Translations under genes and position numbers: made by a program
Assembly (NCBI RefSeq): GCF_000317045.1
Contig: NC_019703.1
Span: forward strand, 4,038,934 to 4,102,933
Origin: Geitlerinema sp. PCC 7407
GTDB taxonomy: Bacteria; Cyanobacteriota; Cyanobacteriia; PCC-7407
Reading direction: 5' to 3'
DNA length: 64,000 nt
The notes under the pieces: generated by a model
What the model was told of the DNA's origin: nothing
The model's database searches: none
Seen by the model: only the letters and a program-made list of their open reading frames with translations
In this document: in pieces, positions 17,666 through 23,325 of the stretch
Position numbering within the stretch: the stretch's first letter is position 1
How the letters are laid out: each line of letters starts with the position of its first letter

Positions 17666-19186
17666 GTGCCTGTGTACAGATGGTTTTTGCCAACCCTCAG
17701 CGAAGTTTTGGCCCAGCGTGAACCCGAAGGCGTTGGGCTTCTCGAGTCGGTTGCTCCGGGAGCCGGGGCGGGTCCTGGTGGCCGCGATCGCCGGGATGGC
17801 CAGCGCCGCAAGGCCGAGCAGCAGTGGCGAAGCGCGATCGCCGCTCTCGAGCAGCTTTTGGCTCAGCAGATCACCCAGGCCGAGGACACAGCGGCCTCGG
17901 GGGTGGTGCTGTGCGGTCCGACGGCGGTGCTCCCGCCAGGGGCGATCGCTGGCAGGCTGCCCACCTACATCTTTTCGAGCGAGCCGCTCCATCTGTCTCG
18001 CTGGATGCGCCGTCAGCTGATGCCCAGCGAGGGCTGCTCCGCCGAGCACCTGCCCCAAACCCCGACCACGCTGCCGCTGCTGCCGGACGATCCGCTGCAC
18101 GAGGAGCAGTTTTGCCTGGTCCACACTCCCAGCTTTAGTCTGGTCATGCTCCTGGGCGAAACGCCCCTGGGAGAGCCAGGATTTTTGTTTTCGTTTAATC
18201 CCGAAACCGTCCAGTGGGCCTGGAATACGCTGCGGGCGCGCGCCCTGATGGTCAACCCAGAGCATGGCGCTCACCTAGACGCCCTGGGCCACGCTTTGCC
18301 CTGGGCCGAGCCCCACTACCACGTGGTGACGCGCTTTAGTCGCGAGCTGCTGCACCATCAGCGCAACCAGGCTGAGGAGGCCCCCGAGGTCGTCACCGCC
18401 AGTACCGCGACGAGCGAAAACGGCAGCAAGCCGTCCCTGGAGCAGCTCACCGAAGACTGCGTGAGCCCCGATGTGGAGCTGTTGCAGGCGATCGCCCACG
18501 AAGTGCGCACGCCCCTCGCCACCATTCGCACCTTCACGCGATCGCTCCTGCGCCGCCGCGACCTCCCGCCCGAGGTCCTCAAGCGCCTAGAAACCATCGA
18601 CCACGAGTGCACCGAGCAGATCGATCGCTTTAACTTGATCTTCCGAGCCGCCGAGCTAGAAGTCGCCGAAAACAAGCAGACGCCCCTGGGCCTCGCCCCA
18701 ACGCCATTGGCCGACGTCTTCCAGCAGGGCATTCCCCGCTGGCAAAAGCAGGCCAGTCGTCGCAACCTCACCCTCGACGTCCTGCTGCCCAACCAGATGC
18801 CCACCGTCGTGAGCGACCCCACCATGCTGGACCAGGCCCTCACCGGCCTGATCGAGCGCTTTACGCGCAACCTGCCCGCCGGTAGCCACATCAACGTCCA
18901 GGTCCGGCTGGCTGGCAGCCAGCTGAAGCTCCAGCTCCAGTCCCAGGAGTGCAGCGACGCCGAGCTCGACTCCCTCGAGTCCCACTCCGCCAATCTGCGG
19001 TCCCTGGGCCAGCTCCTGATGTTCCAGCCCGAAACCGGCAGCCTCAGCCTCAACCTGGCCGTCACCAAGAACCTCTTCCATGCCCTCGGCGGCAAGCTGA
19101 TCGTGCGGCAGCGGCCCCGACGGGGCGAAGTGCTGACCGTGTTCTTGCCCCTCGAGAAGCACAACCCGAGCGTCTACACCGTCTAG
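17666..19186 (+). CDS. Histidine kinase-like protein with His-box but degenerate ATPase domain
   Basis: A 506-residue cytosolic sensor-kinase-like protein. Residues 1-230 form a sensor region that ends in FCLVHTPSFSLVMLLGE and SFNPETVQWAWNTL. A dimerisation and phospho-acceptor domain follows, with His278 in LLQAIAHEVRTPL. The ATP-binding domain that should follow is eroded. The N-box position reads GLIERFTRNLPAGS with Arg where Asn should be, no DxGxG motif is seen, and the G2 box is GSLSLNLAVTKNL. Autophosphorylation is therefore unlikely. The gene opens at a GTG (17666). The next gene on the opposite strand is a kinase with the opposite defect. Confidence 0.85.
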   Translation: MPVYRWFLPTLSEVLAQREPEGVGLLESVAPGAGAGPGGRDRRDGQRRKAEQQWRSAIAALEQLLAQQITQAEDTAASGVVLCGPTAVLPPGAIAGRLPTYIFSSEPLHLSRWMRRQLMPSEGCSAEHLPQTPTTLPLLPDDPLHEEQFCLVHTPSFSLVMLLGETPLGEPGFLFSFNPETVQWAWNTLRARALMVNPEHGAHLDALGHALPWAEPHYHVVTRFSRELLHHQRNQAEEAPEVVTASTATSENGSKPSLEQLTEDCVSPDVELLQAIAHEVRTPLATIRTFTRSLLRRRDLPPEVLKRLETIDHECTEQIDRFNLIFRAAELEVAENKQTPLGLAPTPLADVFQQGIPRWQKQASRRNLTLDVLLPNQMPTVVSDPTMLDQALTGLIERFTRNLPAGSHINVQVRLAGSQLKLQLQSQECSDAELDSLESHSANLRSLGQLLMFQPETGSLSLNLAVTKNLFHALGGKLIVRQRPRRGEVLTVFLPLEKHNPSVYTV

Positions 19187-19208
19187 GGAGAACCCGGAGC
19201 GGGCCAGA

Positions 19209-20792
19209 CTAAACGAGGGGCTCCGGGCTCAGGTCCACGTCGGTTCCCCCGTGGTAGATCGGCAGCAGCACATTGAAGGTGGTTCCTTCGCCGGGTCGGC
19301 TCTTGACCGAAATCGAGCCGCCGCAGCGCAGCAGAAGCTGCTGCACGATCGTCAGGCCTAGGCCCGCTCCGCCGGTGCCTTCCTCTGTGGCCTGCCGCCC
19401 CCGATAAAAGCGATCGAAGATCTTGTGAATCTCGCTCGGGGGAATGCCAATGCCGCTATCGCGAAACTCCAGCTGGACATACTCGCCCTGGAGCTTGGCC
19501 TGTACCCAGACCTGGCCGCCCCGGGGCGTGAACTTGATGCCGTTGTGGAGCAGGTTGATCACGATCTGCTTCATCCAGGTGGCCAGGCAGGACACAGGGG
19601 GCAGGTTGTCGGGCACGGTGTAGGCCAGCATGACGCCTTTTTCTTGGGCCAGGGGCTGGTAGGTGCTGACCACTCCCGGCACGACGTCGCTCAGGCACAT
19701 GGGCTGGACGGTGGCGAGGGTCGCTGGCTGATCCAGGCGAATCAGGTCCAGTAGGCCGCTGATCAGGGAGCCCTGGTGATCGCATTCTTTGTTGAGCACC
19801 TGCATGTAGCGCTGGCGCTGGGAGGGCTTGAGGTTGGGAGAGTTGAGCAGGGTGAGGGCGGTTTTCATGTTGGTCAGGGGCGTGCGCAGCTCCTGACTGA
19901 CGTTGTTGAGAAACTCGTCCTTGAGGCGGATGGTGTTGAGGAGTTCTTCGTTTTGGCGCTGGAGGGCCTCGATGGCGTCGGTCTGACGCCGGTAGGCGAC
20001 GATGCGCCGCCACAGGTCTTCTTGGTGACGCACCTGTTTGGCGAAGAAGAGGTTGAGCAGGTTGGGATCGACGGCCGCAGGCACCGGGAAGACCTCATCC
20101 CAGTGGCTCAGGAGCGGCTCGGTGGCGATCGCCACGGGCGCAGACTGGCCGGTTTCGAGGGCGATCGCTGGGACCGCCGCAAAGGCCGCCTGACACCCCG
20201 CCAGGACCACTTTCACCAGGGCCGGGTCAAAGGAGCACAGGGCCAGCAGGGGCTGCTTACGCTGGCTCTGGGCGGCGTCGGCTTCATAGTCGCTAAAGTC
20301 GCCCAGGCCGCCCAGGGGATCAGCGATCGCCTGCATGGAGCGCGGACGATGGGCCAAGACGCAGCCGCAAAAGCGCTCTGCCAAGACGATCAAAAAGTAC
20401 TCGCGGCGCAGGGCGCTCTCGGCGGCGACAGGGACCGCTAGGCGGGGGGAGTGGTCCGGGCGCGGCGTCAGGAGCGTTAGGTCTGGATTGGGGGCGATCG
20501 CCGGCACGCCGACGACTTCTTCGCTCTCTAGCTCCTTTTCCAGGTAGTAGACCGCGTGGGGCACATCCAGCAGATGGGTGTACTGCTCGATTTCGCTGTG
20601 CCAGGCATCCTTGCGCGGGAGCTTGACCAGCACCGTCGCCGGAATCTGGTGCTCGATCAGGGTGTCCATGACCGAGGCGACCATGGACTTGAGGGTAGAA
20701 GGGCTAATTTGCAGCGGCGGAGCGGCTTCTTCTAGGCTGAAGGCCAGCTCGTACAGAGATTGATCGGGGGTAGGGGGCAACTCCATAGCCAT
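19209..20792 (-). CDS. Histidine kinase with DICT-like sensor, intact ATPase, phospho-acceptor His replaced by Gln
   Basis: A 527-residue protein with an N-terminal sensor region (residues 1-265, DICT-like; SFDPALVKVVLAGC), a coiled-coil, a HisKA-type domain and a complete HATPase_c domain. N-box IVINLLHNGIKFTPRGG, G1 FRDSGIGIPP, F-box IFDRFYRG and G2 GGAGLGLTIV are all present. The H-box reads NVSQELRTPL: residue 300 is Gln (CAG, minus strand, 19893-19895) where kinases have His. Its own phosphorylation on this domain is thus excluded, but its catalytic domain should work. The convergent neighbour, 22 bases away, keeps its His but lacks the ATPase motifs. Confidence 0.88.
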   Translation of the reverse strand: MAMELPPTPDQSLYELAFSLEEAAPPLQISPSTLKSMVASVMDTLIEHQIPATVLVKLPRKDAWHSEIEQYTHLLDVPHAVYYLEKELESEEVVGVPAIAPNPDLTLLTPRPDHSPRLAVPVAAESALRREYFLIVLAERFCGCVLAHRPRSMQAIADPLGGLGDFSDYEADAAQSQRKQPLLALCSFDPALVKVVLAGCQAAFAAVPAIALETGQSAPVAIATEPLLSHWDEVFPVPAAVDPNLLNLFFAKQVRHQEDLWRRIVAYRRQTDAIEALQRQNEELLNTIRLKDEFLNNVSQELRTPLTNMKTALTLLNSPNLKPSQRQRYMQVLNKECDHQGSLISGLLDLIRLDQPATLATVQPMCLSDVVPGVVSTYQPLAQEKGVMLAYTVPDNLPPVSCLATWMKQIVINLLHNGIKFTPRGGQVWVQAKLQGEYVQLEFRDSGIGIPPSEIHKIFDRFYRGRQATEEGTGGAGLGLTIVQQLLLRCGGSISVKSRPGEGTTFNVLLPIYHGGTDVDLSPEPLV

Positions 20793-20954: not shown

Positions 20955-20978
20955 ACCCCACCCTAAGAGGCGTGGGGT
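20955..20978 (-). repeat. Terminal hairpin of IS200/IS605-type element
   Basis: ACCCCAC at 20955-20961 faces GTGGGGT at 20972-20978 with a 10-base loop. The stop codon of the tnpB remnant lies inside it. A hairpin at this place is typical of the right end of IS200/IS605 elements, where it also forms part of the guide (omega) RNA scaffold. Confidence 0.5.
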
Positions 20979-21590
20979 TTCTGTCGCTTCTTCGCCCCAA
21001 GTTGCCGCATACTTCCGCACGCGGTAGAGCTTGGCGGCTCTGCGACTGAAGAGGCAAGTTCCTTACCCCTTGCCCAAGCCAAATTAACTTGGGCGGCATT
21101 AACATCTCGGTCCTCAACATGATTGCAGTGAGGATTAGAGCAGACATGCACCCGGTCAGACAAGGTCTTGGGGGTCAGTTCCCAGCACTTCGCGCAGCGC
21201 TGAGAGGGCTTTAGCTGCTGAGTGGGAGACTCGACGTAGAATCTCCCAGCCTCAGCCAGCTTGTAGTCCAAGAACTGACCAATCATGCCAAAACCCACGG
21301 ACAAAATAGAGCGATTGAGCCCTGCTTTTTGGCAGGTCTTGGTTTTACCTTTGCGGGTCATGTTTTTGACGCTGAGCTTTTCACTGGCCACTAGCCTATT
21401 ACCGCTCACGATGTGGCTGGTTGGTGAATCCAGTTCTCGCGCTGTCGGGCGACTTTGCGCTGTAGCTTCAAGATCTTTTGGCGCTTACGCTTCCATCGGC
21501 GAGAGGCTTTGATGCGCTTCGCTTTGTTGGGGGCGCTTGCGTCTGTGTTTCTTCGAGGCTTGCTTGATTTCGCTCCAACAGTCGCGCTAT
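20963..21590 (-). pseudogene. tnpB remnant of an IS200/IS605-type element (frameshifted, 5' truncated)
   Basis: Only the C-terminal two-thirds of a TnpB-like nuclease is present. The upstream piece (KAKRIKASRRWKRKRQKILK, then VARQRENWIHQ) ends at a stop near 21405. The reading then continues one frame over as HIVSGNRLVASEKLSVKNM, so a single-base indel near 21415-21422 has broken the gene. The downstream piece keeps the RuvC Glu (VASEKL), the zinc-ribbon Cys residues (RCAKC, VCSNPHC) and the last RuvC Asp (EDRDVNAAQVNLA). The N-terminal third, with the first RuvC Asp, is missing. No tnpA is nearby. The element is dead. Confidence 0.85.
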
Positions 21591-21813: not shown

Positions 21814-23325
21814 CTACACGGAGGCCAGCTCGTCGGAGAGGCGACGCTCGAGGGCCGCGCGGGCCTGTTCGCGATCGTCAAAGTGGATTTTTTCGGTGCC
21901 CAAGATCTGGTAGTCCTCGTGGCCCTTGCCCGCGATCAGGACGCCATCGCCCGGCTGAGCCTGCAAAATGGCCACGCGAATCGCTTCAGCGCGATCGCCG
22001 ATCACCGTGGGATTGGCCTCAGCGGGGATGCCCGCCACCACGTCTTGCAAAATCCGCTCTGGGTCTTCGGTGCGCGGATTGTCGGAGGTGACGTACACCA
22101 CGTCCGCTAGCGCCGCCGCGATCTGGCCCATCAGGGGGCGCTTGGTGCGATCGCGATCGCCGCCGCAGCCAAACACGCAGATCATGCGGCCCGGAATGAA
22201 AGGCCGTGCCGCCCGCAGCATGTTCTCCAGGCTGTCGGGGGTGTGGGCATAGTCCACCACCACGCTGATGTCTTGGTCGGGCTGGATCTGCACCCGCTCC
22301 ATGCGGCCCGGCACGCCCGAAAACCCCGGCAGCGCCTGGGCGATCGCCGCCAAATCGAGGCCCAGGTGCAGCGCCGCTCCCGCCGCCGCCAGCCAGTTCT
22401 CCACATTAAACTGGCCCACCAGCGGCAGATGGAAAGCCACCTCGCCCGCGGGCGTGTGCAGAATTCCCTTGACGCCGTCGAGCTCGTAGGCAATGTCGCT
22501 GGTCCACAGATCCGCGCTTGCGTCCTGGGTGCTGTAGGTCCACACCTGCTCCCGGGGCAGACGCTCCACCAGGCGACGACCGTAGGGATCGTCCTGATTG
22601 ACGATCGCCCGTCCCCGCAGGTAGGTCGGACTAAACAGGCGCGCCTTCGCCTCGAAGTAGTCCTCCATATCTTTGTGGTAGTCCAGGTGGTCCTGGGTCA
22701 GGTTGGTAAACACCGCCACCTCAAAAGCGCAGGCCTGGACCCGGCCCTGGTCTAGGGCGTGGGAGCTCGTCTCCATCACCGCAAACTCACAGCCCGCCTG
22801 CTTCGCCAGACCCAGCTGCCGCTGCAAGTCCGCCGCAAAGGGGGTCGTGTGGGTGGCCGTCTGGACAAAGCCGGGCCAGCGGGCATAGAGGGTTCCCAGC
22901 AGGGCCGTGGGCCGCTCGGCCTGGGCTAGCAAAAATTCGATCAGGTGAGTGGTGGTGGTTTTGCCGTTGGTGCCGGTGACGCCGACCAGCTTGAGGGTCT
23001 GGCCGGGATAGCCGTAAAAGGCCGCCGCCAGCTGGGCGCAAGCATCTACGATGGAGTCCACCGAAATCACGCAGGCGTCGCCGATCTTGGCTGCGTGGCT
23101 CTGGGCGATCGCCGGTGAGACCAGGGCCGCCACGGCCCCCGCCGCCAGCGCCCCCGCCCAAAATTCTCCGCCATCCACGCGGGTTCCCGGCATGCCGATA
23201 AACAGGTCTCCCGGCTGGCAAGCCAAGGAATTGGTGCAGATTCCGGTGACATCAGCCTCTAGGGCGCTGTGCTCAGCGGGCAGGGAGAGACCCGGCAGCG
23301 CGGCTAATAGCGATCGCAACTTCAT
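21814..23325 (-). CDS. murE: UDP-N-acetylmuramoyl-tripeptide synthetase (meso-DAP-adding)
   Basis: MurE adds meso-diaminopimelate to UDP-MurNAc-L-Ala-D-Glu in cytoplasmic peptidoglycan synthesis. The ATP loop is VTGTNGKTTTTHL near residue 117. The C-terminal domain carries SDNPRTEDP, the motif that selects diaminopimelate rather than lysine. Other signs are HTTPFAADLQRQLG, VFTNLTQDHLDYHKDMEDYF and VVVDYAHTPDSLENML. Length is 503 residues, normal. It is the last gene of a minus-strand series that begins with ndbB; a glutaredoxin-like gene precedes it with an 82-base gap. Confidence 0.96.
   Translation of the reverse strand: MKLRSLLAALPGLSLPAEHSALEADVTGICTNSLACQPGDLFIGMPGTRVDGGEFWAGALAAGAVAALVSPAIAQSHAAKIGDACVISVDSIVDACAQLAAAFYGYPGQTLKLVGVTGTNGKTTTTHLIEFLLAQAERPTALLGTLYARWPGFVQTATHTTPFAADLQRQLGLAKQAGCEFAVMETSSHALDQGRVQACAFEVAVFTNLTQDHLDYHKDMEDYFEAKARLFSPTYLRGRAIVNQDDPYGRRLVERLPREQVWTYSTQDASADLWTSDIAYELDGVKGILHTPAGEVAFHLPLVGQFNVENWLAAAGAALHLGLDLAAIAQALPGFSGVPGRMERVQIQPDQDISVVVDYAHTPDSLENMLRAARPFIPGRMICVFGCGGDRDRTKRPLMGQIAAALADVVYVTSDNPRTEDPERILQDVVAGIPAEANPTVIGDRAEAIRVAILQAQPGDGVLIAGKGHEDYQILGTEKIHFDDREQARAALERRLSDELASV

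Follow-up and report, generated by a model that had tools for sequence, protein, structure and literature searches.

Two convergent kinase-like genes with complementary losses

The stretch of DNA analysed here, which we call the window, spans 64,000 nucleotides of the Geitlerinema sp. PCC 7407 genome (contig NC_019703.1, positions 4,038,934 to 4,102,933). It contains two kinase-like genes, referred to below as P1 and P2, that run towards one another (Table 1). An earlier note made from the letters of the window alone had described both reading frames, and their positions, convergence and separation by 22 bases are all as it gave them.

Table 1. Features of the P1-P2 locus, in window coordinates
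Feature	Position	Strand	Details
P1: DICT-like sensor, HisKA with intact His, degenerate HATPase	17666..19186	+	506 aa; GTG start at 17666, stop at 19186
P1 N-terminal divergent DICT-type sensory region, approximately residues 46-240	17801..18385	+	hhalign to P2 N-terminus E=6e-10; Pfam DICT weak, E=0.046
P1 phospho-acceptor His278 codon CAC, within HEVRTPL	18497..18499	+	invariant, 131/131
P1 degenerate ATPase-like domain, no G1/G2 boxes	18695..19156	+	alignment of homologues; HK-like CA fold in AlphaFold model
Gap between convergent stop codons	19187..19208	.	22 bases; ORF coordinates
P2: DICT, HisKA with Gln for His, complete HATPase	19209..20792	-	527 aa
P2 HATPase_c domain, N, G1, F and G2 boxes intact	19257..19580	-	Pfam E=4.2e-29
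P2 Gln300 codon CAG at phospho-acceptor position, QELRTPL	19893..19895	-	Gln in 73/78 homologues
P2 DICT sensory domain, residues 11-149	20346..20762	-	Pfam PF10069 E=1.3e-31
murE	21814-23325	-	

P1 scores below the Pfam cut-offs for both of its flanking domains, with 14.1 bits against a required 23.8 for DICT (PF10069) and E=0.042 for HATPase_c. Neither D-x-G-x-G nor G-x-G-L-G is found in any of 131 aligned P1 homologues, and on this basis P1 does not belong among the orthodox HisKA histidine kinases. The acceptor His, by comparison, is present in every one of the 131, as is Thr282, and Glu279 is present in 129. The earlier note had P1 losing the N, G1 and G2 motifs alike. The N-box Asn is indeed lost in this protein, yet it is kept in 59 of the 131 homologues, so the losses that characterize the family are those of G1 and G2. 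The AlphaFold model of P1 (mean pLDDT 83.7) has a core resembling the DHp-CA structures of histidine kinases, and the top matches, with Z 16.6 for DivL and Z 16.5 for RetS in RetS-GacS, are tied with ordinary kinases; such matches of a model are informative about fold, and not about function. A kept His, a degenerate ATPase domain and a kinase-like DHp-CA fold together make P1 a candidate for the PhyT, ChpT and Spo0B type of protein.

P2 is a clear member of the DICT-domain family (PF10069, 109.7 bits against the same cut-off of 23.8). Its ATP site comprises N-box Asn417, a G1 box DSGIG at residues 445-449, an F-box and a G2 box GGAGLG, and N417, D445, G447, F459 and F462 are each conserved in all 78 aligned homologues. 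It is the acceptor position that sets P2 apart from orthodox HisKA histidine kinases: Gln occupies it in 73 of the 78, His in 2, Arg in 2 and Glu in 1, while E-x-x-T/N is retained in 65. In retaining its ATP boxes with a conserved residue other than His at the acceptor site, P2 resembles DivL. CAG and CAA are used about equally for this Gln, and as either is a single base change from a His codon, the Gln is evidently being retained. The earlier note had held that His in close homologues of P2 would count against its interpretation, and we find such homologues in just two cases, L040 (genome G024) and L183 (an uncultured Nostoc MAG). The two other sampled members of the L040 genus with P2 loci have Gln, so the His of L040 looks like a recent reversion, and the same seems to be true of L183. 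The AlphaFold model of P2 has a mean pLDDT of 85.4. The complementary defects of the two proteins are therefore real, and in both families they are conserved across cyanobacteria.

Relationship between the N-termini and kinase cores

Profile-profile comparison indicates a distant relationship between the N-terminal regions of P1 and P2, including the SFxP stretch that the earlier note had taken as a sign of paralogy. The relatedness of these DICT-type regions is upheld, but the stretch has counterparts in other proteins of the same genome (WTFEP in L257, WTFDR in L258). It thus belongs to a DICT-type module shared by several proteins, and we rejected it as proof of a sister relationship between P1 and P2. 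A sister origin through the kinase core was likewise rejected, as a FastTree tree gives the P1 family a long branch apart from P2. Among the kinases of the Geitlerinema genome, P2 is the best match to the P1 core, though a weak one (73 versus 70 bits).

Distribution and linkage of P1 and P2

Across 291 sampled cyanobacterial genomes, and with presence thresholds of 1e-30 for P1 and 1e-55 for P2, homologues of P1 occur in 274 and homologues of P2 in 131. Of the 17 genomes in which P1 had no match, eight come from a single family, f17 (G016, G034, G048, G062, G073, G084, G095 and G105). When only the 260 genomes of good quality are considered, P1 is present in 247 and P2 in 118, which is not the co-occurrence expected of a split kinase of the CheA3/CheA4 type. 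The earlier note had named loss of one partner where the other is kept as grounds for rejecting its pairing, and such loss is what we observe: at least 129 of these genomes keep P1 without P2. They include small genomes of marine type that have some five kinase-like genes each. In two loci from such genomes (L206 and L208), P1 adjoins psaD-, trpE-, rodA-, mrp- and hemF-like genes, named by eye. P2 without P1 is rare and confined to fragmented assemblies, a scarcity that tells us little given how common P1 is.

The two genes lie within 10 kb of each other in approximately 20 of the 112 genomes that have both, mostly in convergent orientation and in about nine families, at least seven of them with adjacent genes. 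This is far above random placement and points to an old linkage between P1 and P2, and a weaker functional link between them may exist. The commonest neighbor of P2, however, is murE. Of 55 P2 loci (L040-L068, L099-L124), 25 have murE just upstream of P2 in the same orientation, whereas only 9 have P1 within an equal distance of 1.5 kb. The linkage between P1 and P2 may therefore reflect one conserved block around murE. In one genome with P2 (G056), P1 lies in the operon described below while P2 is some 278 kb away, beside murE.

Between P2 and murE in the window lies an apparently truncated open reading frame (20963-21409, minus strand) that resembles the C-terminal end of a TnpB-type transposase protein and has a CxxC-CxxxxC pattern, NAAQVNLAWARG.

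P1 is encoded with a Hik2 core and Rre1 in three families

In six genomes from three families (G013, G032 and G082 of f14; G004 and G042 of f5; G056 of f29), P1 stands first in a same-strand operon whose second and third genes encode a Hik2 core and Rre1 (Ycf29), an arrangement that links P1 genetically to both. We take G013 to be Gloeobacter violaceus PCC 7421, and G004 is presumably the Thermostichus-type strain JA-2-3B'a; Gloeobacter and Thermostichus-type strains are early cyanobacterial branches. P1 and the kinase gene overlap by one base in G082, are separated by one base in G013 and G032, and stand at most just under 100 bases apart, in G042. The operon kinase is short, with a HisKA domain, a complete HATPase domain and no sensor. 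In all six genomes it is the best match to the Synechococcus elongatus-type GAF-Hik2 (L309), the alignment covering the core only, with the GAF domain absent. The regulator has a LuxR-type DNA-binding domain, is the Rre1 homologue by being the top match within each genome, and is 65% identical to the Rre1 homologue of Geitlerinema (G000:C1:3936141-3936833). In Geitlerinema itself Hik2, Rre1 and P1 are unlinked, all lying far from one another, and P1 is kept alongside a Hik2 equipped with a GAF domain. A paper on thermophiles has reported that Thermostichus is without Hik2 (PMC9953108), and this reported absence fits a GAF-less core having been overlooked.

The acceptor helix of P1 offers a second connection. 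The region from H+7 to H+21 sets regulator specificity in other kinases, and for this short segment, in a comparison limited to the kinases of Geitlerinema and eight Hik2-type sequences as the only foreign kinases, the P1 family scores best against Hik2-type kinases and operon cores, which fill ranks 1-7 and 10 of 57, with P2 at rank 32. The Hik2 of Geitlerinema was missed by the helix pattern, and its sequence, HQFRNPLTALRTFGKLLLRRLG, is of the same type.

Discussion

Our results argue, with moderate confidence, that P1 and P2 represent two separate conserved families of crippled kinases, in which P1 acts within the Hik2-Rre1 system while P2 is a separate, DivL-like pseudokinase in which His has given way to Gln. 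Both Hik2-Rre1 and Hik34-Rre1 are described modules (PMC3264485, PMC13421787, PMC9321951), and a 2026 review considers the direction of the Hik2-Rre1 redox response to be unresolved, suggesting that in vivo modulators are missing from reconstituted systems (PMC13421787). Hik2-Rre1 is among the most conserved of cyanobacterial signaling systems, and Hik2 has a chloroplast relative. As a nearly universal pseudokinase whose gene adjoins those of a Hik2 core and Rre1 in three families, P1 offers a concrete candidate for such a suspected modulator.

In such a system, the DICT-type domain of P1 would sense a signal. The loss of G1 and G2 predicts that P1 makes no use of ATP, ATP binding presumably having been lost with the degeneration of the domain, and the invariant His with its HExxT context predicts chemistry at that residue. 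Phosphoryl exchange with Rre1, or phosphoryl removal, would be the most likely form of this chemistry, as in PhyT, ChpT and Spo0B, and P1 might also, or instead, pair with Hik2 as its sensory subunit. The residue losses and their conservation, the operon and the occurrence of P1 without P2 are observations, whereas the lack of ATP binding by P1, its contact with either Rre1 or Hik2 and the way in which any phosphate would flow are inferred. The closest parallel is PhyT, a kinase with a degenerate ATPase domain that is encoded at the locus of its regulator and relays phosphate through its His (PMC5898713). PhyT/PhyP of alphaproteobacteria, like ChpT and Spo0B, share with P1 a derivation from kinases, a kept His, a degenerate ATPase domain and a place at a response-regulator locus, which for P1 is the Hik2-Rre1 operon. 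PhyT is reported to be anchored in the membrane and to carry an HRxxN motif (PMC5898713), whereas P1 has HExxT and a DICT-type domain. With Hik2 and the chloroplast sensor kinase, P1 shares a similar acceptor helix, and a Hik2-type core accompanies it in the operons with Rre1; Hik2 differs from P1 in possessing a GAF domain and a full set of catalytic motifs.

Several observations weigh against placing P1 in the Hik2-Rre1 system. The operon is limited to three families, and the three genes are dispersed in Geitlerinema. Because the Hik2 core of the operon carries both a His and an ATP site, it does not depend on P1 for an acceptor. The recurrence of P1-P2 adjacency in at least seven families also counts against treating the two as separate.

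A bolder extension is that the ancestral cyanobacterial Hik2 was sensorless and formed, together with P1 as the bearer of a DICT-type sensor and an acceptor His, a split sensor kinase over Rre1, and that P1 still acts in this way nearly everywhere. We offer this only tentatively, as less likely than not. If true, the Hik2-Rre1 stress pathway would have in nearly all cyanobacteria a third component, P1, that has escaped notice.

It is also conceivable that the His of P1 is never an acceptor, and that P1 is instead a non-catalytic heterodimer partner that relays a DICT signal to Hik2, as RetS, a kinase-like protein, acts on another kinase, GacS. The close spacing of P1 with an adjoining sensorless kinase core is what this would predict, and the P1 core model aligns to RetS as it appears in complex with GacS (7n0e; Z 16.5, rmsd 3.7, 190 aligned), a score tied with those of ordinary kinases. 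The likeness is one of core fold, with sequence identity of about 24% over the matched core. Invariance of both His and Thr282 in all 131 homologues goes beyond the need of a purely structural role, and genomes with a GAF-equipped Hik2, Geitlerinema included, retain P1. We therefore consider this arrangement unlikely.

Still less probable is that P1 is Hik34 (slr1285) and at the same time an unusual yet active kinase for Rre1. The literature does put Hik34 and Hik2 both upstream of Rre1 (PMC3264485, PMC9321951), and autophosphorylation of recombinant Hik34 has been reported (PMC3264485), but activity of this kind is hard to reconcile with a family in which no homologue has G1 or G2. The same report bears on our favored reading as well: were P1 to be Hik34, as it may be, autophosphorylation would conflict with the predicted lack of ATP binding.

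We assign a similarly low likelihood to the model of the earlier note, in which P2, with ATP bound, would act in trans as the kinase for His278 of P1. The model was drawn from CheA3 and CheA4 of Rhodobacter, chemotaxis-type proteins that carry kinase and acceptor functions separately and are mutually dependent partners. Conserved complementary defects, the recurrent convergent adjacency and the weak best match of the P1 core to P2 are all what such a pair would be expected to display. P1 is, however, common without P2, persisting alone in about half or more of genomes, and its partners in the operons are a Hik2-type kinase and Rre1. In addition, murE rather than P1 is most often found next to P2, the acceptor helix of P1 is like that of Hik2 and unlike that of P2, and the tree keeps the two cores apart. 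Overall, the interpretation in the earlier note is partly supported: the defects stand, while the trans-acting pair does not. Lastly, although each protein is without motifs thought essential in an orthodox kinase, the idea that either is a decaying pseudogene or a sequencing error is refuted by identical losses in scores of genomes where the rest of each protein is open and conserved.

Under our favored reading of two separate families, P2 would have a DICT sensor and an intact ATP site but would not phosphorylate itself. Most likely it reads or regulates a response regulator without catalysis, as DivL does, or else is a pure phosphatase, a possibility raised by the E-x-x-T/N retained in most homologues. 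DivL of Caulobacter keeps every ATP box, has Tyr in place of His, and reads a phosphorylated regulator (PMC4211667). The family-wide replacement of the acceptor beside kept ATP-site boxes is common to both, while DivL has Tyr and PAS domains where P2 has Gln and a DICT domain. In the laboratory, the H-box of Hik2 has been mutated by changing His185 to Gln (PMC4751278), and P2 is naturally in the state that this substitution gave Hik2. With P2 comes a second natural family of kinases, one held in the His-to-Gln condition that laboratories produce on purpose. A keyword-based literature search, limited in coverage, found no earlier description of a Gln-type DICT kinase.

Gln at the acceptor position is uncommon in Geitlerinema, occurring in only 2 of roughly 50 kinase-like cores, P2 and one other. 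The same genome encodes a third crippled kinase (G000:C1, L256:1169-2641, plus strand), which has a GAF domain and a HisKA domain with Gln (TQELRTPL). Its HATPase match is weak (19 bits, under the cut-off), and this protein seems to be without both halves of a working kinase.
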